A program made the translations under genes and the position numbers. A DNA stretch of 46,351 nucleotides, taken from positions 1 to 46,351 of the IMG/VR virus record IMGVR_UViG_3300002180_000020; one strand, given 5' to 3'. Every line of letters begins with the position of its first letter. Position 1 is the stretch's first letter. Positions 8,559-39,039 of this stretch are shown here, piece by piece. Origin of the DNA: a virus. The notes beneath the pieces are model-generated. The model was not told where the DNA came from. It did not search any database and saw only the letters and a program-made list of their open reading frames with translations.

Positions 8559-10166
8559 ATGGGCTTTTTAGACTTATTCTCAAGTAATAAACAGATTGAT
8601 TTTCTTAAGAGTGAATTAGCAGAAGCAAGTTCATATGGAGGTGTTTATTCCCCTATTCATGTTGTTTCTTTTGATGGAGAAAAAAATACAGGAGAACTTG
8701 GTGTTTTAACTAAGTACGATTTAGATTATAACGGTTTAAGATTACGCTCTTGGGAGTCTTACCTTGGAAGTGAAATTACTCAAACAGTTGTTAGGAAATA
8801 TGTTACTTGGATAATTGGTTCTGGGTTAAAGCTGCAAAGCGAACCTATTGGAGATATTTTACTTGATGAAGGTGTTGATATTGATTCTCAAAAATTTAGT
8901 AAAAAAGTTGAACAAAGATTCAAGCTTTACACTAAATCAAAAGAATCTGATTACAGCAAAATTGACAATATAAATAGACTTTCAAGAGTTATCTACACCA
9001 ACGCAATAGTAGGCGGTGATGTCTTAGTAATTCAAAGAATTATCAATGGTAATCTAAATGTTCAACTGGTTGATGGTGCTCATGTAATGACTCCTTGTTT
9101 TGATAATCACGAAGCGGATGCAATTAAGCGAGGAAACATCATTAAAAACGGTATTGAAGAAAATAAAAAAGGAGAACACGTTGCCTATTATGTTGCAAAC
9201 AAAGAGGGCGAATCAACAAGGATAGAGGCAAAAGGTAAAAAAACAGGAAGAGATACAGCTTACCTAGTCTATGGCTTGCGTTATAGGATAGATGATAATA
9301 GGGGTATTCCTTTAATATCTACAGTCTTAGAAACTCTTAAAAAGCTGGATAGATACAAGGAAGCAACTGTTGGAAGTGCTGAAGAGAGAGCAAAAATACC
9401 TTTCTTTATAGAGCATGAAAAAGAATCAACTGGAGAAAATCCACTAATAGGCTCAATGGCTAAGGCTTTCAATGTTGATAGTGAACAAGATATTCCTGTT
9501 GATATAAATGGTCAGCAACTTGCAGACAATATTGCAGCAACAATGAACAAACAGGTTTATAATATGCCGCAATCTTCAACCTTAAAAAGTTTAGATTCTA
9601 AAAATGATATTTACTTCAAAGATTTTTACTCTGTAAATGTCAATTCTATTTGTGCTGCAATAGGAATACCGCCAGAAGTTGCTTTGAGCAAATATGATTC
9701 CAACTTTTCTGCAAGTAGAGCAGCATTAAAAGATTGGGAACACACAATCAATGTAGAAAGAGAAGGCTTTTCATTCCAATTTTACCAAAAAGTTTATAAA
9801 GGTTGGTTGGAGTTAGAAATCTTAAAAAATAAAATACAAGCTCCAGGTTATTTGATTGGGTTATCAGATGAGAATTATATGTTAATCGGAGCCTATACCA
9901 ACGCAAGGTTTGTTGGTAACAATGTTCCGCACATTGACCCATTAAAAGAAGTTCAAGCAGAGAGATTGAAATTAGGAAGCCGAGGCGCTCACATACCTTT
10001 AACTACGACAGAGTCATCAACAGAATTACTTGGTGGCGGAGATTCAGATTCAAATATAACACAATTTGGGGAAGAGTTGAAACATACAGAACAAAACGGT
10101 ATTGAAATGGTAGAGCCTATTCCTGAAACAGTAGAAACAACAGAAACACAAAAAACAAATGAGTGA
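8559..10166 (+). CDS. Portal protein, lambda gpB family
   Basis: 535 residues forming the dodecameric DNA-entry ring at one capsid vertex. Family-like features are an early WESYLGSEITQTVVRKYVTWIIGSGLKLQ segment, LIxP-type core with DGAHVM (about 172), the AYLVYGLRYRIDDNRGIPLISTVLETLKKLDRYKEATV region typical of gpB, and KDFYSVNVNSICAAIGIPPEVALSKYDSNFSASRAAL, where the last part is the well-known portal signature. The C-terminal tail (about 490-535) is acidic and disordered. Upstream gpW-like protein and downstream ClpP-like protease follow lambda order, apart from the inserted lysis genes. Confidence 0.92.
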   Translation: MGFLDLFSSNKQIDFLKSELAEASSYGGVYSPIHVVSFDGEKNTGELGVLTKYDLDYNGLRLRSWESYLGSEITQTVVRKYVTWIIGSGLKLQSEPIGDILLDEGVDIDSQKFSKKVEQRFKLYTKSKESDYSKIDNINRLSRVIYTNAIVGGDVLVIQRIINGNLNVQLVDGAHVMTPCFDNHEADAIKRGNIIKNGIEENKKGEHVAYYVANKEGESTRIEAKGKKTGRDTAYLVYGLRYRIDDNRGIPLISTVLETLKKLDRYKEATVGSAEERAKIPFFIEHEKESTGENPLIGSMAKAFNVDSEQDIPVDINGQQLADNIAATMNKQVYNMPQSSTLKSLDSKNDIYFKDFYSVNVNSICAAIGIPPEVALSKYDSNFSASRAALKDWEHTINVEREGFSFQFYQKVYKGWLELEILKNKIQAPGYLIGLSDENYMLIGAYTNARFVGNNVPHIDPLKEVQAERLKLGSRGAHIPLTTTESSTELLGGGDSDSNITQFGEELKHTEQNGIEMVEPIPETVETTETQKTNE

Positions 10167-10359
10167 TAAAATAGAAAAAACAATCGCATTCATGACGGGT
10201 GATTTAGTAGCAATGGTGGTATCATATAAGCTGCTTGGAGATATAGCATCAGCAACAATCATTGCTATCGCAACAGGCTTCTTTGGTGGTGCTGCTGCAA
10301 TAGCTGGTAAAATGCTGATAACTTGGTTGTTCAAGAAAAAAGAAAAAGATGATGTCTGA
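10159..10359 (+). CDS. Small two-helix membrane protein, holin candidate
   Basis: 66 residues with two hydrophobic stretches (about 15-30 and 33-56, the second with many Ala/Gly) and a very basic C-terminus ending KKKEKDD. This is the shape of a class II holin. It overlaps the portal end by 8 bases and the next gene by 11 and sits one gene before a predicted endolysin. A second membrane protein at 11295 competes for the holin role. Confidence 0.6.
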   Translation: MSDKIEKTIAFMTGDLVAMVVSYKLLGDIASATIIAIATGFFGGAAAIAGKMLITWLFKKKEKDDV

Positions 10360-10786
10360 GAAATTACAAAAAGAATTGATTTTGTTTGGTAAGTTCCTAT
10401 CTGGAATTGTTACTTTATGCTTTTCGCTTTGGTTTTTTGGTCGTGCTCCTTTTAATGAAAAAGTCAATGAGTTGATGGATGACTATATTGTTAGTGAGCA
10501 TTATAAAGCTAACCATAAAAATTTAACGAAAGATTATGTTGATTCTCCTGATTTCAAATACTTAGTTGATAAAGTTATTAGTGATTATGAAGAGGAGTTG
10601 AAAAATAAAGATAGCAGCAAGATTGGACTTCGTAAATTGTTAGCTGATAAGATGGGCATTGCAGAGGATGAAGTTCATATTGAGTTAGGTAGAATGTTTA
10701 AGGCTGAAAAAATCTTATTCAAGGATTTGAAAATTGAATTAAAAAGAGTGATAAAAAGGTATCACCCTGAGCTAAATATAAACTAA
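10349..10786 (+). CDS. Membrane-anchored protein of the lysis cassette
   Basis: 145 residues. One hydrophobic segment at about 12-31 (LFGKFLSGIVTLCFSLWFFG) anchors a charged, largely helical domain. An N-in, C-out spanin-like or antiholin-like role would suit its place between two holin candidates and the endolysin, but no motif proves it. It starts with two ATGs inside the end of the previous gene. Confidence 0.65.
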   Translation: MMSEKLQKELILFGKFLSGIVTLCFSLWFFGRAPFNEKVNELMDDYIVSEHYKANHKNLTKDYVDSPDFKYLVDKVISDYEEELKNKDSSKIGLRKLLADKMGIAEDEVHIELGRMFKAEKILFKDLKIELKRVIKRYHPELNIN

Positions 10787-10796
10787 GGAAAACAAG

Positions 10797-11291
10797 ATGG
10801 AAAACATAAGTAGAAATATCACATATAAAGAAGCAACCAAAAGCAATACAGCTAAAAGGTATGGAATTGAAAATGTTCCAAATGATTTTCAATTAGCAAA
10901 CATGAAAATGGTTGCAAAGAATTGTTTCCAACCTTTAAGAGAGGAATATGGTAGTCCAATTGGAGTCAGCTCTTTTTTACGTTCCAAATTATTAAATGAG
11001 CACCCTGCAATAAACGGTTCTAAAACATCTCAACACTTACAAGGACTTTATTCTAAAATAGAGGAAGGAGCTATTGACATTGATGCTGATATTTATGATA
11101 ATGGAATTACTAATGCTGAAATATTTAATTGGTTGAAAGATAATGTTGAATTTGACCAATTGATATGGGAATATGGAACAGATGAAGAACCTGCGTGGGT
11201 TCACGTTTCATTTAGGAAAGGAGCGAATAGAGGTATGATGTTGACTGCATATAAAGTTGGTAAAAGAACAAAATATAAATTAAGAAAATAA
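10797..11291 (+). CDS. Endolysin, peptidase M15 family
   Basis: 164 residues. Zinc-site residues of M15_3-type peptidases are visible: H80 in SKTSQHLQG, an acidic site at AIDIDAD (about 93-97), and WVHVSF (H136). FQLANMKMVAKNCFQPLREEYG and IGVSSFLRS upstream match the usual N-terminal part. Such enzymes cut peptide crosslinks of the host cell wall at the end of infection. There is no signal peptide, so release would need a holin from the neighbouring membrane genes. Confidence 0.87.
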   Translation: MENISRNITYKEATKSNTAKRYGIENVPNDFQLANMKMVAKNCFQPLREEYGSPIGVSSFLRSKLLNEHPAINGSKTSQHLQGLYSKIEEGAIDIDADIYDNGITNAEIFNWLKDNVEFDQLIWEYGTDEEPAWVHVSFRKGANRGMMLTAYKVGKRTKYKLRK

Positions 11292-11294
11292 GCT

Positions 11295-11774
11295 ATGGGA
11301 GATTATAAAGATAAGCATGGTAAAACTAGGGTAGGAGCATTTTTAAAGAATACGGCTCCTCATATTTTAGATATGGTTAGTGATGTGATGCCTGATAAAG
11401 GAGTTTTAGGTGTTGTAAAGAACTTAATAAGTAAAGACACCCAGTTGTCAGCATCACAAAAAGCAGAGGCTTTAGAGTTGCTTCAAATAGATTTAGAAAA
11501 CACTAAAGATGCCAGAGCAATGCAGAAGGCAGCATTACAGCAGGATGATATATTCTCAAAAAGGTTTGTTTATTATTTAGCTACTTTTTGGAGCGTCACT
11601 GGAGCTCTTTACTTATTTCTTGCAACTTTTACCACAGTAGTCAACCCTAAGATGGCAGACACTGTTTTAGGTTTCTTGTTAGGTACTATTGTGGCAACCA
11701 TTATCAATTTCTTTTTTGGTAGTTCTCAAGGTTCAAAAGATAAGGGCTTAGAAATGTTGAAAAATAAAAATTAA
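11295..11774 (+). CDS. Putative holin (GTA/3TM-holin-like)
   Basis: 159 residues. The first half is soluble and helical. Two hydrophobic segments lie at about 91-113 and 122-142, followed by a short polar tail (GSSQGSKDKGLEMLKNKN). The form 'RFVYYLATFWSVTGALY ... VLGFLLGTIVATIINFFFGSS' is like the phage holin family with C-terminal membrane helices. It lies four bases after the endolysin gene. Good support for a membrane role, moderate for holin. Confidence 0.7.
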   Translation: MGDYKDKHGKTRVGAFLKNTAPHILDMVSDVMPDKGVLGVVKNLISKDTQLSASQKAEALELLQIDLENTKDARAMQKAALQQDDIFSKRFVYYLATFWSVTGALYLFLATFTTVVNPKMADTVLGFLLGTIVATIINFFFGSSQGSKDKGLEMLKNKN

Positions 11775-11785
11775 TAAAAAAAGTC

Positions 11786-11812
11786 TTGTTTAAAGAAAAA
11801 ATTATATATTTG
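11786..11812 (+). promoter_or_regulatory. Promoter before the prohead protease
   Basis: TATATTTG at 11805-11812 with TTG at 11786-11788, a 16-base gap that is slightly short of the usual about 19. The ATG of the protease gene follows eight bases later. The 18-bp element of the non-structural promoters is absent. Confidence 0.55.
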
Positions 11813-11820
11813 TAGTTATT

Positions 11821-12813
11821 ATGCCAAAAGAGATATTAATATATAGTTCAATTTACAGCTTCACAGCTGAATCTTTCATTGAAAAAATGGAGGAAGCTAG
11901 AGGTGAAGATATTGTTTTGAGATTGAATACACCTGGCGGTGATGTTCAAGCTGGATTTGGTATGATTGCAAAGTTTGCAGAACACGAAGGGCTTAAAAGC
12001 ATTAAGGTGGACGGTAAAGCAAACTCCATGGGAGCTTTCTTCCTTGCTTATGCAGATAACGTAGAGGCACTAGATGTTTCAGAAATTATTTTACACAGAG
12101 CAGCCTATCCTAGTTATATTGAATCAAGAGAAGATTTTAAAGGTTCAGATATGGCTTTATCTTTAGATAAGATAAATAAAGATGTAAGAGCGGGTTTAGA
12201 ATCTAAAATAGATGTTGAAGCTTTTGAAAAAGTTGCAAAAGTGTCTTTAGATGAAATGTTTAGTATGGATTCTAGAATTAATGTAAGATTAACACCTGCC
12301 CAAGCAAAAAAGATAGGATTAATTAATAAGGTGAAAAAATTAACTTCTCAAATGAACACAGAAATACAAGCTAATAAAATATCTATTGCAGCAAGTTTTG
12401 GAGTAGATGTAGAGGCTTTAGAAGTGTTACCAGAAGCTGAAGAAAATAAAGAATTAAAACCCAAAAATAAAAATAAAATGACTTTACAAGAATTAAAAGA
12501 TAAACATCCAGAAGTTTACGCTCAGGTAGTGGCTGTTGGTGTTGCAAACGAAAAAGACAGAGTTCAAGCTTGGATGGCTTTTGTTGATGTTGATGCTAAA
12601 GCAGTTTCAGAAGGAATTGAGGCAGGTACTTCAATGTCTCAAAAAGCAATGGCTGAATTCAGCAAGAAAATGTTTTCAAAAGAACATATAATTGCAGCTG
12701 AAGCTGAAAATGCTCCAGAAACAGAAACTGATACTCCTTTAACTAAGGAACAAGCAGAAGCAAAGAAAATCGCTGAATTTGAAGCGGAAGTTGATAACAA
12801 TAAAAACGATTAA
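11821..12813 (+). CDS. ClpP/S49-like prohead protease with C-terminal scaffold region
   Basis: 330 residues. A ClpP-like fold covers about 1-190: LRLNTPGGDVQAGFGM (34-49), nucleophile region KANSMGAFFLAYAD (S69), and LHRAA with H92. The phage enzyme matures the prohead by cutting scaffold. A linker (about 205-219, acidic then KPKNKNK) leads to a helical C-terminal part, LKDKHPEVYAQVVAVGVANEKDRV, common to scaffold-like tails of Bacteroidota prophage proteases. The arrangement matches lambda gene C with nested Nu3; an in-frame internal start at 12478 supports this. Confidence 0.88.
   Translation: MPKEILIYSSIYSFTAESFIEKMEEARGEDIVLRLNTPGGDVQAGFGMIAKFAEHEGLKSIKVDGKANSMGAFFLAYADNVEALDVSEIILHRAAYPSYIESREDFKGSDMALSLDKINKDVRAGLESKIDVEAFEKVAKVSLDEMFSMDSRINVRLTPAQAKKIGLINKVKKLTSQMNTEIQANKISIAASFGVDVEALEVLPEAEENKELKPKNKNKMTLQELKDKHPEVYAQVVAVGVANEKDRVQAWMAFVDVDAKAVSEGIEAGTSMSQKAMAEFSKKMFSKEHIIAAEAENAPETETDTPLTKEQAEAKKIAEFEAEVDNNKND
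12478..12813 (+). CDS. Nested in-frame scaffold protein (internal start in the protease gene)
   Basis: ATG at 12478 is in frame with the protease (its residue 220) and is preceded by AAAAATAAAAATAAA, the same A-rich start context used by real genes in this genome (compare 13272-13286). Product of 111 residues: helical, acidic at the end, with KDKHPEVYAQV near the start. Lambda makes its Nu3 scaffold this way from gene C. Known precedent plus the start context support it; separate expression is inferred. Confidence 0.5.
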   Translation: MTLQELKDKHPEVYAQVVAVGVANEKDRVQAWMAFVDVDAKAVSEGIEAGTSMSQKAMAEFSKKMFSKEHIIAAEAENAPETETDTPLTKEQAEAKKIAEFEAEVDNNKND

Positions 12814-12815
12814 TC

Positions 12816-13262
12816 ATGAGCGAAGTAACGGTAGTAAACGCAACAAATAATCAAGCACAATTTGATTATGATGTTTCCAAAATATTTGTTTGGAATAATA
12901 GATATGAAACTGGTTCTTTATTGAATGCTTCAGGAGGTGTGAAAACATTTTTACCTGGAACTTTGATGGGAAGAATTGCAGCTTCACAAAAACTGGTTCC
13001 TTGTGCATCAGGAGCAACTGATGGAAGTCAGTTTCCTGTAGGAATATTAAAAACAAACGTAGCTGATATGGCTGATGCAGCTTCTCAAGATGTAAACATT
13101 TGCATTTCTGGTGATGTTGTAGAGGCTAAGGTTATATTTGATGGTACAGATACAATTAATACAATCGTTGATTTAAAAATCTTAGGTGATAGAATTGCTG
13201 GAGATACAATGGGTATTAAATTAGTTGACGGTATTGAATTAACTAACTTTGATAATCAATAA
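12816..13262 (+). CDS. Head decoration protein, lambda gpD family
   Basis: 148 residues, beta-rich, with a start two bases after the protease gene. The pattern 'Y-E-T-G..LNASGGVKTFLPGTLMGRIAASQKLVPC' and 'QFPVGILKTNV...DVNICISGDVV' is the usual gpD-type fold, in which the protein binds mature capsids and stabilises them against internal DNA pressure. The order protease-decoration-major capsid is that of lambda C-D-E. Confidence 0.85.
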   Translation: MSEVTVVNATNNQAQFDYDVSKIFVWNNRYETGSLLNASGGVKTFLPGTLMGRIAASQKLVPCASGATDGSQFPVGILKTNVADMADAASQDVNICISGDVVEAKVIFDGTDTINTIVDLKILGDRIAGDTMGIKLVDGIELTNFDNQ

Positions 13263-13286
13263 AAATAAATTTAAAAAAAATAAAAA

Positions 13287-14360
13287 ATGGCAACTATAAG
13301 CACTACTGACGCAAGAGCGTTATTCACAAAAAAATTAATATCCGTTTATAAAGAGCGAACAACTCCAACGGCTTTTTTACGTTCTTTTTTCAAAACTGAA
13401 GAATCTGATACTAAACAAATTTCAATTGAAGTTCAAAGAGGTACAGAATTAATTGCAGTAGATGTTGAAAGAGGTACGGAAGGAAACAGAAATCAGTTCT
13501 CTAAGAGCACTGAAAAAATATTTGTTCCACCTTATTACCGTGAGTATTTTGATGCAACTGACTTAGACTTTTATGACAGATTGTTTTCTCAAAATGGTTC
13601 AGTTGACGGTAATACATTTAGAGTTTGGATGAACCAAATTGCTGATAAATTAATGATGTTGCAAGACAAAGTTAATAGAAGTTATGAATTACAATGTTCA
13701 CAAGTATTATTGACTGGTATTGTTCAATTGCAAAATGGAACAAACATTGATTTCAAAAGAAAAGCGGCTTCTTTAGTAGATGTTGGTGCTGCTGCTTATT
13801 GGGCGGCTGCTACTTCTAATCCTTATGCAGATTTAGAAAATGCTGCTACTTTTATCAGAACTAAAGGTAAAAGCTCAGGAAACATTTTTAATGTTATTTT
13901 AGGTCAAGTTGCAATGCAAAATTTCCTTAATAATACAGAAGTAAAAGAAAGATCTGATATTAGACGTATATCTTTGGATTCAATTAGAACTCCACAAAAA
14001 GATGCGACAGGTGGCGTTTTACATGGTGAAGTTTCAGCAGGTGCTTATGTATTTAGATTATGGACTTATCCAGAATATTATGATACAGCTTTAGCTCAAA
14101 ACATCTCATATATTGATGAGAAAAAAATCATTGTTATGCCAGACGCTCCTAAGTTTGTTTTAGGATATGCTGCTGTTCCAATGTTGTTTGGTACGAAACC
14201 AAATGTTGGTGCAACTGGACTATCTTCTAAGAAAGGAAGATTTGTTATTGGTCAATATTTAGATGAGAGAAATTCAGCTCACATTATTGATATTAAATCT
14301 GCAGGAGTTGCTATTCCGGTAGCAATCGACCAGCTTTATACTGCTAAGGTAGTATCGTAA
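13287..14360 (+). CDS. Major capsid protein, lambda gpE family
   Basis: 357 residues, the usual size of gpE-type coat proteins. Family-like segments include TPTAFLRSFFKTEESDTKQISIEVQRG (27-53), FVPPYYREYFDATDLDFYDRLF (about 77-98), an alanine-rich helix (LENAATFIRTKGKSSGN) and a C-terminal YTIPYxDEKKIIVMPDAP-like part (SYIDEKKIIVMP). A strong terminator follows the stop codon, as expected for a highly expressed gene. It starts after an A-rich leader, AAAAAAAATAAAAA-ATG. Confidence 0.92.
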   Translation: MATISTTDARALFTKKLISVYKERTTPTAFLRSFFKTEESDTKQISIEVQRGTELIAVDVERGTEGNRNQFSKSTEKIFVPPYYREYFDATDLDFYDRLFSQNGSVDGNTFRVWMNQIADKLMMLQDKVNRSYELQCSQVLLTGIVQLQNGTNIDFKRKAASLVDVGAAAYWAAATSNPYADLENAATFIRTKGKSSGNIFNVILGQVAMQNFLNNTEVKERSDIRRISLDSIRTPQKDATGGVLHGEVSAGAYVFRLWTYPEYYDTALAQNISYIDEKKIIVMPDAPKFVLGYAAVPMLFGTKPNVGATGLSSKKGRFVIGQYLDERNSAHIIDIKSAGVAIPVAIDQLYTAKVVS

Positions 14361-31790: not shown

Positions 31791-32219
31791 TTAAAAGAAT
31801 ATTGTTTTCTTACCTGTTTGCAGCAATTTTTCAATATCTTCAATAAAATAAACACCTTTAGGCTCTCCATTTATTATAGACCAAAAACCGTCTAAAGATG
31901 TTACTATAAAGTAAAAACCTCCTTGTTTTGTTATTTTTTTACCCCATTCTAATTGCTTCTTTACGTGGTCTCTTTTATGTTTTTCTCCAGGATATTTTAC
32001 CTCAATCCCTGCTAATTGCCCATCTTTTAAGTAAAGCAAGTCAGAAACTCCTCTTTGTAGGCCCATAGCAAGCTGTTTCTGTCCGTCTCTTTGTGATAGA
32101 GTCCTGTTTAGAGTAGCCCATAATTGTCCTTTCTCGTTTGGCCTATTTTGACTAAAATCAAGAACCATTTTGCTTTGTAATTTTGCTTCTTTATTCATAC
32201 ACCAGTTTTTAAATTCCAA
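31791..32219 (-). CDS. VRR-NUC domain nuclease
   Basis: 142 residues. GVSDLLYLKDGQLAGIEVKYPG (57-78) holds the PD-(D/E)XK-type residues D60, E73 and K75, with a Q89 helix (KKQLEWGKKITKQGGFYFIV) behind it, as in stand-alone phage VRR-NUC nucleases. These cut branched or structured DNA, sometimes with a partner helicase. It overlaps the queE gene by 25 bases and closes the modification operon, suggesting a function linked to DNA modification or replication. ATG at 32219 or 32198 may be the start. Confidence 0.82.
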   Translation of the reverse strand: MEFKNWCMNKEAKLQSKMVLDFSQNRPNEKGQLWATLNRTLSQRDGQKQLAMGLQRGVSDLLYLKDGQLAGIEVKYPGEKHKRDHVKKQLEWGKKITKQGGFYFIVTSLDGFWSIINGEPKGVYFIEDIEKLLQTGKKTIFF

Positions 32220-32893
32220 ATAACAATATGTAATCTGTCTGAATACCTAACACACATATCAACAGATAATTGAGCTGCAATAGGTCTTGTAATTTCTAAC
32301 TCTGCTTGGTTTTCTCCTGCAGGCATAAATACAACATTTTTGAAATCTATAACCTTATCGAATTCATTAAATACTTCAAGAGCATCTTCTTTTTTAGATA
32401 TAACAAACTTAAATATGACGTTACCTTGTCTATTAAGTCTAAACAAAGAAAGTTCATTAAACCTCTTCTTTTTGCTCTCTCCGCTTGATTCTAACTTTGG
32501 GCTAACATTCCAATAATCAACCTTCTTTTCTAAATAAGGTTCTAGAGATATTGTTCCATTTGTTTCAATTTCAATAATTGGCTTAAAATTATGTTCAACC
32601 TCAAACCACTTTATATATCTTTCAATTGCTTTTCTATGCAACATAGGTTCACCACCAGTTATCACCAAGTGAGCTCCTTGATGAAGTTTTTCAATATAAT
32701 CAGGACAAATAACATCTTCAAAAGGTGTTTTGACTCCTTTTTTCCAAACTTTAATTGAGTCACAAATCCAACCCTCTCCTTTACAAAGTAAGTTGCAACC
32801 TGATAACCTTAAAAATACTGCAGGAATACCCATTGTTTGGCCTTCGCCTTGTATTGAATAAAATATTTCTGATACCGATAATTCTTTTTTCAT
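32195..32893 (-). CDS. queE: 7-carboxy-7-deazaguanine synthase (QueE), radical SAM
   Basis: 232 residues. QueE converts 6-carboxy-tetrahydropterin into 7-carboxy-7-deazaguanine (CDG) using a 4Fe-4S cluster and SAM. Seen are YSIQGEGQTMG (12-22), the cluster cysteines C33, C37 and C44 in GCNLLCKGEGWICDS, VITGGEP (77-83), EIETNG and a C-terminal RLHIVIWN. The usual QueE cluster motif is C-x3-C-x2-C; here it is C-x3-C-x6-C, four residues longer. The start follows an A-rich leader. Its partners FolE and QueD are upstream in the same operon. Confidence 0.92.
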   Translation of the reverse strand: MKKELSVSEIFYSIQGEGQTMGIPAVFLRLSGCNLLCKGEGWICDSIKVWKKGVKTPFEDVICPDYIEKLHQGAHLVITGGEPMLHRKAIERYIKWFEVEHNFKPIIEIETNGTISLEPYLEKKVDYWNVSPKLESSGESKKKRFNELSLFRLNRQGNVIFKFVISKKEDALEVFNEFDKVIDFKNVVFMPAGENQAELEITRPIAAQLSVDMCVRYSDRLHIVIWNLKTGV

Positions 32894-32905: not shown

Positions 32906-33397
32906 TTAAAATTCAAACATATCCATTTGATTACTCAAATCAACTTTTATTTTTTCTGCTTTTGTAACACTTGTCCAATCAAAAGTAAGTAAATCTTTGA
33001 AAAATTCAACAGTTACTAAAGGAATGCCTAGTTCATTGGCTATTGAGTTATTCGATAATTCTAAAGCTGATATTTTTTTAGCTATTTTGATTGAATTAGG
33101 TTTATTTAAAATGTTTTGGAATAATATACTTGCAGACTCTTTACTTATCCCTTTCAAGTCATGCAGTACTAAACACCTGATATCTACGTTGCCACATTTT
33201 TTAAAAGCGATAAATTCATTTATCATATTTAATATCAAATAATTATCATCATCAACTTTTAAAACTGTTGGTATAAAAATTTGGTTATTATTTGTAAAAA
33301 CTCTAGATAAAGATGTTGAATGCTTTAAGCAAATATCATTCAAGGAATCTTCCATCCCAATTATTTTTTTAACTTCTATTTTTTCCAAACTGTTCAT
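32906..33397 (-). CDS. ParB-like protein beside the transglycosylase (DpdB-like candidate)
   Basis: About 163 residues from ATG at 33397, which follows an A-rich leader; a longer frame to 33433 would overlap dpdA. The N-terminal part (IIGMEDSLNDICLKHSTSL ... FIPTVLKVDDDNYLILNMINEFIAFKKCGNVDIRCLVL) has the ParB/sulfiredoxin layout, but the usual GxxRxxA motif is replaced by NMINEFIAF, so it is degenerate. A HTH-like C-terminal half (ALELSNNSIANELGIPLVTVEFFKDLL) follows. Bacterial dpd islands pair DpdA with DpdB, a ParB-related protein. Equivalence here is inference. Confidence 0.6.
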   Translation of the reverse strand: MNSLEKIEVKKIIGMEDSLNDICLKHSTSLSRVFTNNNQIFIPTVLKVDDDNYLILNMINEFIAFKKCGNVDIRCLVLHDLKGISKESASILFQNILNKPNSIKIAKKISALELSNNSIANELGIPLVTVEFFKDLLTFDWTSVTKAEKIKVDLSNQMDMFEF

Positions 33398-33402
33398 ATT
33401 TT

Positions 33403-34281
33403 TTATTTTAATTGAAAACCTCTTTCTTTCCAAACTCCTGTTAAGAATTTAGCCATTTCAAGATATCCTCGTGCTGAATATTCTAATCTATAATTATTTT
33501 CTATTTTTTTATCCTCATTAAATAGCTTGTCAAATTCTAAGGTTGTAGCTATTTTAATCGCATCTTGATTTCTACATTCAAGCATCTTAACCTTGGAGTC
33601 TAAAAAGTGACCAATGAATCCATAAATAACACCAGCCTTCCAACTTGAACTATCAACAGACCAAAATCCATAATTTAAAAATACATCAGTTTTTGTCATT
33701 GCAAAGCCATGGGTTTTTACTCCTCTTTCGTGGGCCAACTTCAAGTATTTATTATAACTTATTCTAGGCCTGTTATCTCTATCTCCCTCTAAAGCTATAT
33801 ATCTACTCTCTGAATCATCAAGCATTTCAATATATTCTTCATCTGTCATAATTGCAGGATGGTAAACTGTGACACATTTATGGTAGACACCTGCATCTTT
33901 AAGCTGCTGCCTCCATAACATAACTTTTTCTTGACCAACAATTTCTCCAATATCTAACTCTGCATAATAATCCAAATCATCAATATGTTTTTTAATCCAA
34001 ATAAGATATTTTGCCATATATTCATCTGGAGTTTCTTTAGTTTTTGTTTTCTTTTTTAAGTTAGAAACAGAAAGTCCAGCGTCATGGTTTTCAGCAAAAA
34101 ATGAATGGGCTCCAGAATCAACAAATATCAATTCGTGGTGTTTTCTGTTTGCAATCATATTGGCTACCATTGGCTTTGACTTTCTCATATAGTAATAAGA
34201 ATAAAAAGCATTAGGTATCAAATCTTTTTGAACTATTGGAATACATTGATTCTGTTCAATTGCAGCTAAATATATCTTCAT
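33403..34281 (-). CDS. dpdA: DpdA-like DNA guanine transglycosylase
   Basis: 292 residues in the TGT/DpdA superfamily, which exchanges guanine for a 7-deazaguanine base. Visible TIM-barrel motifs are FVDSGAHSFF (D55, like DSGG in TGT), AELDIGEIVG (107-116), VYHP (H141), IALEGD (162-167), THGFAMT (190-196) and FWSVDSSSW (206-214, D210 candidate nucleophile). It lacks an RNA-binding PUA domain, so DNA is the likely substrate. It lies three bases after the glycosyltransferase gene and before queE. No QueC or QueF is encoded, so substrate identity (CDG, its decarboxylated form or host preQ0) is open. Confidence 0.85.
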   Translation of the reverse strand: MKIYLAAIEQNQCIPIVQKDLIPNAFYSYYYMRKSKPMVANMIANRKHHELIFVDSGAHSFFAENHDAGLSVSNLKKKTKTKETPDEYMAKYLIWIKKHIDDLDYYAELDIGEIVGQEKVMLWRQQLKDAGVYHKCVTVYHPAIMTDEEYIEMLDDSESRYIALEGDRDNRPRISYNKYLKLAHERGVKTHGFAMTKTDVFLNYGFWSVDSSSWKAGVIYGFIGHFLDSKVKMLECRNQDAIKIATTLEFDKLFNEDKKIENNYRLEYSARGYLEMAKFLTGVWKERGFQLK

Positions 34282-34284
34282 GGA

Positions 34285-35424
34285 TTAATCGTTTAAAAAG
34301 TTAAAATAAGATTCTTCATGCCAGATGTTGAATTCTTCAACCAAATCACTTAACATTATATGAGCTTCAACCCTCCTACCTAAATCGCTCTTTTTTACTA
34401 TGTGATGATGTGTTCTGGGCTCCTTAGTCACCTTGTTTAGTAGTAAGACAGCAGATTTGACATCAAACGCCTTATAGAGCCTGTCTGAATCAATTATCTC
34501 AGGAAACGACCTGAAGTTAGGATAAACTATATCACAACTAAACATCGTTGATTCTAGCAACGTCCAAGAAACGTAATCCTGTAAAGATGAATTAAATTGT
34601 ACTAAAGATTTTTGAAGCTCTAAATAATATTCTTCTTTTGTTAAGTTTGCTTTCAAAACTAATCTAGGATTAATTTCTGCAAGAGCTTTCATTTCATTAA
34701 CGAATCCAGGTATGCTGCTTTTGAAGTCATCACCAGAAGTGGTTATAACCCAAGTAAATTCTGGATTTCTATCTAAAAACCTAAGAGCGACATCAAGCAT
34801 AAAATAGGGATTTTTCTCCTTATCAAATCTACTTGTAAAAATTACCTGCCTCTCTTTTTTAACAACACCTTTGAAAGCTACTTTTTTAGCCAACTCTTGA
34901 TGTATTGGTAAACTCACAACGTGGATAGCAGCTTTGAATCCAGCGTTTCTTAATTGTTCTTTATGTATGGTTGACCCTACAAAAATACCGCTATGTCTTT
35001 TATCAATTCCTAATTCAAAATCTCTCATCCAATCTCTCATATGATAAGTGAAATCATATTCATCCACACTTTGGGCATGAAGCATTGAATACAATTTAAT
35101 TTTTATACCATATAAATCAAGCATATAAAAAACAGCTTCAATACCTGGAGTCCAGAAATCTTGTAAAAATACAATATCATTATTCTGAACTTTACCTGCT
35201 GCAATAGCTTTCATGAATTGTTGACATTGGCTCATAGAATAAACACCTCTACCGTAAGCATCTAAAACTGAACCAACACTTATTTTACCATCATCTTTTT
35301 CACCTCTAAGGTGTATGAAATTGACTGCTGCTTTTTTGAATGTGTCAGGCATCCATTCTTCACTTAGTTGGTAGGTGTACCTTTCTTTTAATGGCTCTAA
35401 GCCAAAATACCATAAATTTCTCAT
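34285..35424 (-). CDS. GT4-like glycosyltransferase within the modification operon
   Basis: 379 residues with two Rossmann-like halves (GT-B). The C-terminal half shows VIFTSRFDKEKNPYFMLDVA (about 194-213), typical of the donor domain, and 'SWTLLESTMFSCDIVYPNFRSFPEII' with E291 and E309, fitting the EX7E-type region of GT4 enzymes. There is no membrane segment or signal. It lies one base before the T-fold gene and three bases after its 5' partner, so it is co-expressed with deazaguanine synthesis. A role in adding a sugar to the modified base or DNA is an inference; alternatives are host surface or other targets. Confidence 0.78.
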   Translation of the reverse strand: MRNLWYFGLEPLKERYTYQLSEEWMPDTFKKAAVNFIHLRGEKDDGKISVGSVLDAYGRGVYSMSQCQQFMKAIAAGKVQNNDIVFLQDFWTPGIEAVFYMLDLYGIKIKLYSMLHAQSVDEYDFTYHMRDWMRDFELGIDKRHSGIFVGSTIHKEQLRNAGFKAAIHVVSLPIHQELAKKVAFKGVVKKERQVIFTSRFDKEKNPYFMLDVALRFLDRNPEFTWVITTSGDDFKSSIPGFVNEMKALAEINPRLVLKANLTKEEYYLELQKSLVQFNSSLQDYVSWTLLESTMFSCDIVYPNFRSFPEIIDSDRLYKAFDVKSAVLLLNKVTKEPRTHHHIVKKSDLGRRVEAHIMLSDLVEEFNIWHEESYFNFLND

Positions 35425-35425
35425 C

Positions 35426-35776
35426 TTATATGTTTTTTTTGTTAATTATTACTTCTGCTCCATTTTCATTATCCTCTAGGACGCTGCAATAGTTTAAACC
35501 AAATAAATCTGCAAGTGATTCAGCTATCATTTCACAGCTTTTAGAACCAAAATTACCTTTATATTCAATATCTAAATGTTTTTCAATTTCTCTTTTTAAC
35601 ATTATTATTTCAACATCTCTATCAGAATGAGAAACTTCTTTTTTGCATTTCATAAAGAAAATATGTCTATGCGGATGCCTTAAAAAATCCACTTCTTTAA
35701 ATGGACACTCTGGCCAATTGTGAACTGCTTCATATTGCAGCGTGACAACAATATTAGTCTTTTTTTCTATCATCAT
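35426..35776 (-). CDS. Second, divergent QueD-like T-fold protein
   Basis: 116 residues. The zinc-type pattern of QueD is recognisable but altered: H19 (YEAVHNWP), C24, then RHPHRH (H34, H36, H38) in place of LHGH, SKSCEMIAESLADLFG (78-93) in place of PTAENIA, and VLEDNENGAEV (E101) in place of the ET motif. The DH motif is absent. It overlaps queD by 23 bases. A separate enzyme step is likely, for example decarboxylation of CDG or a change to the pterin. It is a candidate for the predicted CDG decarboxylase DpdL; I cannot confirm the match. Confidence 0.65.
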   Translation of the reverse strand: MMIEKKTNIVVTLQYEAVHNWPECPFKEVDFLRHPHRHIFFMKCKKEVSHSDRDVEIIMLKREIEKHLDIEYKGNFGSKSCEMIAESLADLFGLNYCSVLEDNENGAEVIINKKNI

Positions 35777-36308
35777 AATTTCTTTTTCCTTTTAATTTTT
35801 TATAATCACTTAATTTTGTTTCGTTCTCTTTGAAAAAATTATGCTTTTCATCCCTTGTTATTGATGTGACATCACAATCAACATAACAATTTGGCGTCTC
35901 CCAAAGCCTTATATTTTGACATCTTAATCCAACTTTATAATCGTGAACTAAACTGTCAGCAATAAGGAAGATTTCTTTAGCAATGTTTTCCGCTGTTGGG
36001 TTGCAATAGTTACCTTGGTTTAAACTCATTACCCATAACTTAGATTTCTCTTCTATACAGGCCTTAATATATGTTGAGTCGTGTGGGTTAGCTATAAATC
36101 CGTGGTCTAAATAATCATCTACAAATTGACCAAACAATCTTTTTATCTCTTTGAAATCTACTGCATAACCTATAGATTCTATTGTATCAAATTGCCAAGT
36201 TGCCTCTATTTTGTAAGTATGACCATGTAAATTAAAACATTTAAAGCATTCATTCATCACTCTGTGTCCGCTGTCAAAAGTGAATATTCTAGTTACAGTT
36301 TGTGGCAT
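35754..36308 (-). CDS. queD: 6-carboxy-tetrahydropterin synthase (QueD)
   Basis: 184 residues. It converts 7,8-dihydroneopterin triphosphate into 6-carboxy-tetrahydropterin. Zinc ligands H15, H28 and H30 (LHGHTY), catalytic C24 (ECFKCFNLHGH), YAVDFKEIK (48-56), LDHGF (D68-H69), PTAENIA (104-110) and WETPNC (E137) are all present. It is longer than usual QueD (about 120): an insertion near 73-100 and a lysine-rich tail after 150 add length. It starts two bases after folE. Confidence 0.93.
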   Translation of the reverse strand: MPQTVTRIFTFDSGHRVMNECFKCFNLHGHTYKIEATWQFDTIESIGYAVDFKEIKRLFGQFVDDYLDHGFIANPHDSTYIKACIEEKSKLWVMSLNQGNYCNPTAENIAKEIFLIADSLVHDYKVGLRCQNIRLWETPNCYVDCDVTSITRDEKHNFFKENETKLSDYKKLKGKRNYDDRKKD

Positions 36309-36310
36309 AG

Positions 36311-36952
36311 TTATAGGTTTAAAAATTCATTTCTAACCGTAGCATCTTTGAAAACACCACCGAGCTTTGAAGTGGTTGTATCACTGTTGGTGTCTGTTAC
36401 ACCTCTAGATTTCACACAATAATGAGTGGCTTTGATTTGTACTGCAATATCATTCGTATCTAAGATAAAAGATAAGGCATGAAAGATTTGTTCTGTGAGC
36501 CTCTCTTGTATTTGGGGTCTCTTACTAAAGAACTCTACAACTCTGTTAATTTTAGATAACCCAAGAACTTTTTCTTTTGGAATATAAGCTACTTTGGCAA
36601 AACCATCAATAATTACAAAATGGTGCTCACAGTTTGATTGAACATTGATTTTATCTACACAAACCATTTCGTCATACTTCATTTTATTTTCAACCGTAGT
36701 ACATTTTGGGAAGTTTGAATACTGCAAACCATTGAAGATTTCGTAGACATACATTTTAGCAACTCTTTCAGGCGTATCCCTAAGGCTGTCATCATTCATA
36801 TCTAAACCTAAAGCCTCCATTATTTCTCTGAACTTTCGCTCAATAATTACAGGGCTATCCATGTGAAGTCCTGTTTTGTTCATTGGAGTTTCTACTCCAA
36901 CTTTTAACAAGTGTTCATTAACTTGTTTTCCTAAGTGTTTGTCAGTTTTCAT
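36311..36952 (-). CDS. folE: GTP cyclohydrolase I (FolE)
   Basis: 213 residues. It converts GTP to dihydroneopterin triphosphate, the first step of both folate and 7-deazaguanine synthesis. Key motifs: [10 protein letters not shown] (59-68), [12 protein letters not shown] (C108, H111 zinc ligands), [17 protein letters not shown] (123-139), RPQIQERLT (145-153), [11 protein letters not shown] (C179) and a C-terminal [12 protein letters not shown]. Full-length. Together with QueD and QueE it makes CDG. It overlaps the preceding gene (TAATG). Confidence 0.96.
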
Positions 36953-37389: not shown

Positions 37390-39015
37390 CTAAAAACTAG
37401 AGACATAATTTTTAGCTTTTATTATTGTTCCTTTCTTCCAATGTTTACTTTTGCCAAATTCCTCTAACAATTCCACGCCACCCATAAAGTAAAGTTGGCG
37501 CCACAGCCATGCAGGTTTATGCCCTTTCATTTGATAATACTTGTAGAGTTCATCAGTATTCATTTGGCTAATCTTCTTTACTGCAATAGCTTTGAATTCT
37601 TTTGTATCGTATAATAAAGCCCTAAGTTCTATTTCTTTTGCTTTTTTACTAGGATAAATATATCCGCAAAAAGGACAGATTTTAATAGACGCCATTATTA
37701 AGCGGTTGCAGCCACCTATACCATTCTTATCTTTTTTCATTACTCCATTAGATTCAACACCGCATTCTTTTACAGGAGCAATTCCAGAACCATCAGCGTT
37801 ATTCTCATGCCATAGACCCCAATTTTGTGGACTTGTATAATGACCTAACCTTGCTGCATTATCTCCAAAATCTAATATATTGAAATGGCTCTTCTTTTTT
37901 GCAATACGACTTCCACGACCTATCATTTGCAGCCATAAAGCTGATGATGATGTCGCTCTATTTATTATTAATGTTTCTATATCTGGACAATCAAATCCTG
38001 TGGTTAAAATACCTGCATTAATTAAAACTGGAAAATCCTTGTTTTTGAATTTGTTTATTATATAAGTCCTTTCACCTGACCACTTACCAAAACTATCTAA
38101 ATATAATTTGTATAGCCTCATCTTTTCTTGATAGCGAACCCACAACCCTTCATCAGCATCACTGTCTGGCTCTTTAGGCTTCCCCATACCTGAAACTAAA
38201 AATCTAGCATCAATACCCATCTTTTGAAATTCTTCACAAGTGTGAATGACGTGTTCAATGTTTACACAAAAAACAAGCGTATGAGTATTTTTTGCAACAT
38301 CTAACCAATTTTTAACGACACCAGCGTATAGTTTTGGTGAGTTGAAACGGTTGAACATTTCTTTTTCATCAAAATCACCTTTCATTTTATTGATTGAAAC
38401 ATTATTTAAATCAACACCATTAACACCATAATAATCATCAGAAACAAGATAGCCCTTATCAACTAATCCTTTAACGGATATTGTTTCTATAATTTCCTCA
38501 TAATCTAAAGCTAATTGCCTCATCTTACCTGTTCTTTTAGGTGTTGCAGTAAAACCTAAAACATATTTATCATCCACTAAGCCGCTTTCAAACAAATAGT
38601 TGAAATCTTGTTTATGGGCTTCATCAATAATTATCAAATCAATATCTCTTAAAATCCACCTTGACCATAAGGGTAATTTTATTCTATTCCTTAATGTTTG
38701 AGCCATTGCGACATAAACCTTAGCTTCAAAGTTTAAATATTTTCCTCCAGCCCTAATGAAAAAAGGCTTCAAGCCAAAGTTTTCTAGAGAGCCTCCGGCT
38801 TGCATTAACAATTCTGTTCTATCTGTAAGTATTAAAGCTTTTTTGCTCTTAGATATTGCATTCTGTGCGATATAACTAAAGATGACAGTTTTACCTGCTC
38901 CCGTAGGTGCTTGGAATATCAAATGTTTTCCACCCTTACTGAAGAAACGTCTTGTCGCTTCAACACCATTCTGCTGATAATCTCTTAACTTAACCACTTC
39001 AATATGTAATAGCAT
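37390..39015 (-). CDS. Superfamily 2 DNA helicase (DEAH box)
   Basis: About 541 residues from ATG at 39015 (a TTG at 39024 is possible but less likely). Motif I APTGAGKTV, motif II DEAH, motif III TATP, a helicase C part with GFDCPDIE and motif VI QMIGRGSR are present. This resembles RAD25/UvsW/type III restriction helicase chains of phages. A zinc-type cluster with CPFCG (CGVES ... GCNRL ... CPFCGY) is near residue 440. Probably acts in replication, recombination or R-loop removal. Confidence 0.9.
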   Translation of the reverse strand: MLLHIEVVKLRDYQQNGVEATRRFFSKGGKHLIFQAPTGAGKTVIFSYIAQNAISKSKKALILTDRTELLMQAGGSLENFGLKPFFIRAGGKYLNFEAKVYVAMAQTLRNRIKLPLWSRWILRDIDLIIIDEAHKQDFNYLFESGLVDDKYVLGFTATPKRTGKMRQLALDYEEIIETISVKGLVDKGYLVSDDYYGVNGVDLNNVSINKMKGDFDEKEMFNRFNSPKLYAGVVKNWLDVAKNTHTLVFCVNIEHVIHTCEEFQKMGIDARFLVSGMGKPKEPDSDADEGLWVRYQEKMRLYKLYLDSFGKWSGERTYIINKFKNKDFPVLINAGILTTGFDCPDIETLIINRATSSSALWLQMIGRGSRIAKKKSHFNILDFGDNAARLGHYTSPQNWGLWHENNADGSGIAPVKECGVESNGVMKKDKNGIGGCNRLIMASIKICPFCGYIYPSKKAKEIELRALLYDTKEFKAIAVKKISQMNTDELYKYYQMKGHKPAWLWRQLYFMGGVELLEEFGKSKHWKKGTIIKAKNYVSSF

Positions 39016-39039
39016 AAAAAACAAGCAACAACCACACCA

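Follow-up and report, generated by a model that had tools for sequence, protein, structure and literature searches.

DNA can be coated with sugars on hydroxymethyl-pyrimidines, and tRNA is known to contain deazaguanine that bears a sugar. The T4 alpha- and beta-glucosyltransferases (AGT and BGT) act on hydroxymethylcytosine in DNA, and the animal enzymes QTMAN and QTGAL form mannosyl- and galactosyl-queuosine, their acceptor being the cyclopentene hydroxyl in tRNA (PMC12518689). The modification of phage DNA with 7-deazaguanines relies on FolE, QueD, QueE and QueC together with the transglycosylase DpdA, as in phages 9g and CAjan (PMC6884629). The locus described here lies in a virus record of 46,351 nucleotides (IMG/VR record IMGVR_UViG_3300002180_000020, analysed over its whole length and hereafter called the window). 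FolE, QueD, QueE and a DpdA-type transglycosylase are all present in one operon, as in the 9g and CAjan systems; however, QueC and an amidotransferase are missing, and a small QueD-fold protein (orf116) and a glycosyltransferase (GT) are found instead.

The genes of the operon, which in transcription order are folE, queD, orf116, GT, dpdA, orf175 and queE, are listed in Table 1. GT is an open reading frame of 379 codons with an ATG start; the stop codon of orf116 is separated from it by a single nucleotide (TAAGATG), and three nucleotides lie between the stop of GT and the start of dpdA. Hence, the reading made earlier from the sequence alone (the sequence-only reading) was right in describing GT as tightly packed inside a modification operon, and also in calling the gene upstream QueD-like: orf116 has no match to the Pfam PTPS family, but the best PDB match of its model is QueD of E. 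coli. The scans of Pfam and PHROG gave no match for orf175. A small nuclease-like gene (31791-32219; PHROG 824/93, Holliday-resolvase or endonuclease type) overlaps the end of queE.

Table 1. Genes of the modification operon in the window
Gene	Product	Position	Strand	Evidence
folE	GTP cyclohydrolase I, first step to deazaguanine	36311..36952	-	PF01227 8e-62; TIGR00063 over cut-off
queD	6-carboxytetrahydropterin synthase, catalytic-type motifs present	35754..36308	-	PF01242 3e-29; PHROG 2389 QueD-like 2e-26
orf116	Small QueD-fold protein, candidate CDG-processing enzyme	35426..35776	-	Model (pLDDT 94.4) closest to E. coli QueD in the PDB; 91% in hhalign against the QueD profile; motif counts; conserved GT neighbour
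GT	GT4-like GT-B glycosyltransferase	34285..35424	-	Fold, donor motifs, family Pfam matches, neighbourhoods
dpdA	DpdA-like DNA guanine transglycosylase, small class	33403..34281	-	PHROG 887 6e-25; Asp motifs kept at residues 55/109/210
orf175	No assigned function, associated with operons of this type (near GT in 9 loci)	32906..33433	-	Cluster n21
queE	7-carboxy-7-deazaguanine (CDG) synthase	32195..32893	-	PHROG 2076 1e-54; TIGR QueE models

We consider it rather probable that GT is the DNA-modification glycosyltransferase of a QueC-less pathway and adds a sugar to a 7-deazaguanine of the CDG branch in phage DNA. FolE, QueD and QueE would lead to 7-carboxy-7-deazaguanine (CDG), which orf116 would probably convert into a CDG derivative; DpdA would then exchange guanines in the phage DNA for the resulting base, and GT would transfer a sugar from a nucleotide-sugar, by the retaining chemistry of the GT4 type, onto the base already in DNA. 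Such a bulky, sugar-bearing base would block host nucleases. Direct support is given by the genes themselves and their association, by the fold and by the intactness of the donor motifs; we infer all the steps after CDG, as well as the deazaguanine nature of the acceptor, its presence in DNA at the time of transfer, the kind of sugar and its protective role. If this scenario is correct, a sugar on a deazaguanine in DNA would represent a new class of hypermodified base, joining the DNA and the tRNA cases, and would predict resistance to many restriction enzymes, besides explaining a set of hypothetical genes in the phages harboring the module. No report of a glycosylated deazaguanine in DNA was found in the literature searched, whose scope did not extend to Cui 2023 and the 2024 MMBR review.

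Strong evidence comes from the company that GT keeps. A search with the window GT alone retrieved 30 viral loci (53-69% identity), and an alignment search revealed at least 486 relatives in IMG/VR, the best 80 of which were kept; overall, 103 viral loci were found by GT alone. DpdA was present in the fetched piece at 98 of these 103 loci, usually as the next gene and on the same strand. Thus, the neighbourhood co-occurrence with dpdA that the sequence-only reading had proposed to look for is strongly positive. GT and DpdA share the strand in 157 of 158 cases, with a median gap of about -2.5 nt between the open frames. In the GT loci of at least 14 kb (n = 32), DpdA was found in 31, orf116 in 27, and at least one of folE, queD and queE in 27. 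Moreover, the DpdA proteins at GT loci belong to two classes, detected by different profiles, and on a GT tree (FastTree, 146 sequences) the class changes eight times, at least five of these changes being forced by well-supported branches, a count that the presence of long branches makes rough. Such a repeated re-pairing of GT and DpdA is hard to explain by descent alone, and the idea that GT belongs to a 7-deazaguanine modification module, across unrelated phages and with two DpdA classes, is strongly supported. Of the proposal of a glycosylated deazaguanine made by the GT of the operon, then, the membership in the module has stood, and the sugar on the base remains a prediction.

The same neighbourhoods bear on the idea that GT acts on a glycan of the virion or of the host surface and is located in the operon by chance. 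Many phage and bacterial GT4 proteins are indeed annotated as surface-glycan enzymes, but DpdA accompanies GT at nearly all loci, and surface or fibre glycosylation was rejected, no tail-fibre or polysaccharide-assembly family having been seen in the census around GT. The prevalence of homologues beside surface-polysaccharide or fibre genes, which would have spoken against the original proposal, is not observed, since the census contains no such locus; we assign next to no probability to a surface role.

GT was also detected in 16 of the 50,697 phage records, which represent five lineages (Synechococcus BUCT-ZZ01, Xanthomonas X1, Acidovorax ACP17, Sinorhizobium Phosso and the PA5oct/Paride group of Pseudomonas), and it was not found in the module of phage 9g nor in any isolate outside these 16. 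All of them harbor orf116, which occurs in as few as 26 of the 50,697 records, and QueE is present in the one record read for each lineage (5/5). DpdA lies beside GT in four lineages, that of Phosso being located elsewhere in the genome. At the loci read, the existing annotation of the isolate GTs is at most "glycosyltransferase". The module is common, with at least 486 relatives in IMG/VR, and some of the phages that carry it are in culture, among them PA5oct and Paride, which infect Pseudomonas aeruginosa.

Concerning the protein itself, the window GT alone gives a weak match to Glycos_transf_1 (PF00534, E 7e-4, below the cut-off), and 30 of 46 members of the GT family match the same model, the best with 7e-15. 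The predicted structure (pLDDT 93.1) consists of two Rossmann-like domains in a GT-B fold, and its comparison with the PDB gave 371 matches at E<=0.001; the best-fitting ones are the retaining GT4 enzymes BshA, MshA, PimA and SenB (E about 1e-13 to 1e-10, that of BshA being 2e-13). GT shares with them the fold and the donor-site motif and differs in its own N-terminal motif and in its phage DNA-modification context, the identity in the fold alignments being about 10-14%. Across the 46 diverse members, R199, E203, K204 and E291 never vary, position 283 is always D or E, and E309 is near-invariant (at least 90%), so that GT keeps the R..EK and [D/E]-x7-E motifs ([D/E]283-x7-E291) that characterise the GT4 donor site. 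Hence, GT is a GT4-type GT-B glycosyltransferase, as had been read from its sequence, with intact donor-site motifs, and the conservation of these residues makes it likely that the donor half is active. The N-terminal half, which presumably binds the acceptor, is marked by a family-specific motif that reads LEPLKxRYT in most members. A drift of the GT profile to unrelated GT4 proteins was considered and discarded, nearly all the matches bearing either this motif, in its T or S form, or the donor motifs.

Some points count against the main reading. Among the substrates of GT4 enzymes are many small molecules and lipids, and GT has no close structural match among the known DNA glycosyltransferases. 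Indeed, the comparison with T4 AGT and BGT, which had been suggested as a check, revealed a GT4 glycosyltransferase fold and no particular likeness to the T4 enzymes: these resemble GT in the proposed role, a sugar on a modified base of phage DNA, but act on a different base and appear neither among the 50 best fold matches of the GT model nor in the profile search of the PDB.

The genes surrounding GT also speak of sugar. A nucleotidyltransferase (PF01467 cytidylyltransferase-like; PHROG 7878, 2e-35) of the heptose-1-P adenylyltransferase/glycerol-3-P type is encoded no more than 2 kb from GT in 22 loci. None of the 34 loci that have orf116 but not GT shows it within 2 kb of orf116; in one of them it is found 4.7 kb away. 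NDP-sugar epimerase, alcohol dehydrogenase and Gfo/Idh-type genes occur at other GT loci, and, altogether, at least one sugar-related gene is found within 3 kb of GT in 30 loci. These neighbours are an independent support for sugar chemistry and suggest that different phages use different sugars. No gene for sugar activation is present in the window, a further point against the main reading; the donor would therefore come from the host in this phage, and other phages of the family carry sugar-activating genes themselves. A second, different GT4 protein is encoded near GT in five loci (L031:5010-6353, L020:6530-7918, L107, L189 and L190), which could mean a two-sugar decoration.

It might be argued that the GT fold now serves to transfer something else (a phosphate, an acyl or another group) in the deazaguanine pathway, or that GT has no catalytic role and is a partner of DpdA that binds DNA. 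Little is understood of the acceptor side, and the window GT falls below the Pfam cut-off; both facts would fit such a scenario. Yet the canonical donor residues persist even in very divergent members and sugar-nucleotide genes cluster with GT, and we regard it as quite unlikely.

Which base would receive the sugar depends on the fate of CDG. QueC (PF06508) is absent from the whole 46-kb record, which, as an IMG/VR virus record, may be a fragment, and 27 of the 30 whole related records are likewise without any match to it, two having partial matches over the cut-off. The possibility that QueC is hidden elsewhere in the phage was, on the basis of these whole-record searches, set aside. For QueF, the weak matches have the expected size and place of FolE, and none is over the cut-off. 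Since QueC is absent, the window system is not of the preQ0/G+ type; and as the window and nearly all the records checked lack QueC and QueF, an amine made from CDG, which the sequence-only reading had offered as an acceptor, is unlikely. The carboxyl of CDG, its other candidate, is still a guess.

In place of QueC, the pathway would depend on orf116. Its model is a QueD/PTPS T-fold (E. coli QueD, E 3e-5, TM 0.72) that keeps the QueD-type His triad (H19, H36, H38) at the positions of the QueD zinc ligands. A function as QueD itself, that is, as 6-carboxytetrahydropterin synthase, was rejected: the protein shares the fold but lacks the catalytic Cys before HGH and the Asp-His pair. Indeed, the Cys-HGH motif is present in 98 of 100 QueD sequences and in 0 of 167 orf116 members, only two of which have an Asp-His type motif. 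Because orf116 also occurs without GT (in 34 of the 76 loci found by orf116, and in phiST, MA9V-3 and others), its link is with the base pathway that lacks QueC and not with GT itself; it probably processes CDG further. A CDG decarboxylase named DpdL has reportedly been predicted for phages by Cui and colleagues in 2023. If orf116 decarboxylates CDG, the product is a 7-deazaguanine without a hydroxyl or carboxyl for ordinary O-glycosylation, which counts against the main reading; therefore, given a base with no obvious hydroxyl, carbon 7, the exocyclic amine and a retained carboxyl may all be considered as attachment points.

The operon of Cellulophaga phage phiST shares FolE, QueD, QueE, an orf116 homologue and a DpdA-like gene with the window and differs in the P-loop kinase-like gene between the last two. 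The row of orf116, kinase-like gene and DpdA-like protein is seen in phiST (L204:6992-8577) and in Chryseobacterium phage MA9V-3 (L205:6467-8615), the kinase-like gene occupying the place that GT has in the window.

As far as the timing of the transfer is concerned, GT might act before insertion, so that the free CDG or deazaguanine base (or nucleotide) is glycosylated and DpdA inserts the ready sugar-bearing base. The GT4 enzymes closest in fold (BshA, SenB and MshA) do act on small molecules, and 27 GT loci have a phosphoribosyltransferase gene, which is, however, also seen in 11 orf116 loci without GT. Two very different DpdA classes, both paired with one GT family, would need to accept a bulky base. 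Other phage bases receive their sugars when already part of the nucleic acid, which counts against a transfer before insertion, as does the same course of events for queuosine, whose sugars are added by QTMAN and QTGAL (PMC12518689). We hold this order of events to be unlikely, and favour the addition of the sugar to the base once in DNA.

The example of QTMAN and QTGAL, which likewise put a sugar on a 7-deazaguanine-derived base, raises the question of whether GT might do so in tRNA, in a queuosine-like manner, with the transglycosylase being a tRNA enzyme. The animal precedent (PMC12518689) would be in agreement with this, as would the weak match of one large transglycosylase to tRNA TGT (PF01702, 4e-6). 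Nevertheless, the window transglycosylase falls in the phage family PHROG 887, and phage DpdA enzymes act on DNA (PMC6884629); QueC and QueF, which would make preQ0/preQ1, are missing; and no Pfam model other than the generic glycosyltransferase ones matches more than two members of the GT family, which leaves no informative match with QTMAN/QTGAL. A tRNA target is, in our opinion, very unlikely.

Going beyond the window, the DNA-directed reading can be extended, tentatively and with odds that we would place somewhat short of even, to a whole family of new bases, that is, 7-deazaguanines bearing different sugars in different phages (some from heptose-like or epimerised donors made by the phage), of which a few may bear two sugars, possibly with a direct link to carbon 7, plus a chromosomal version in Magnetospirillum.

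Other genes recur near GT. Radical SAM, SPASM and methyltransferase genes (L125:5508-6887, L128:9520-10452, L069:577-1200) hint at a further tailoring of the base or the sugar. Some large phages (L019:416-1450 and eight other loci) encode, at a distance of a few kb from GT, a UV-damage endonuclease-like protein (UvdE, assigned by eye). A family of 140-180 residues (about 150; c6fam) adjoins GT in many loci, with or without orf116, and was recorded at 84 loci (e.g., L014:1555-2007, L032:7519-7950 and L033:6326-6724, the last two assigned by eye). The member scanned gave no Pfam or PHROG match. The family was considered as a possible degenerate QueE: its N-terminus resembles the QGEG motif of QueE, with the N-terminal 23 residues as the sole aligned part (hhalign 41%).

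As for the mobility of the module, only two relatives of the window helicase (37390-39024) were found, a number too small for a background rate; their contigs (L210 and L211) carry a helicase 61% identical to that of the window and no module gene in the fetched piece, and the module may therefore be a movable cassette. Lastly, in the Magnetospirillum genome contigs L195, L197, L199, L200 and L201 (about 9959-14056), GT, orf116, a large DpdA and queD lie together, apparently at the same chromosomal place; some of these contigs exceed 130 kb and one reaches 1.4 Mb. They may harbor either a bacterial form of the module or a prophage that they have in common. Just after the module, a possible GT-A-like protein (named by eye) is encoded.
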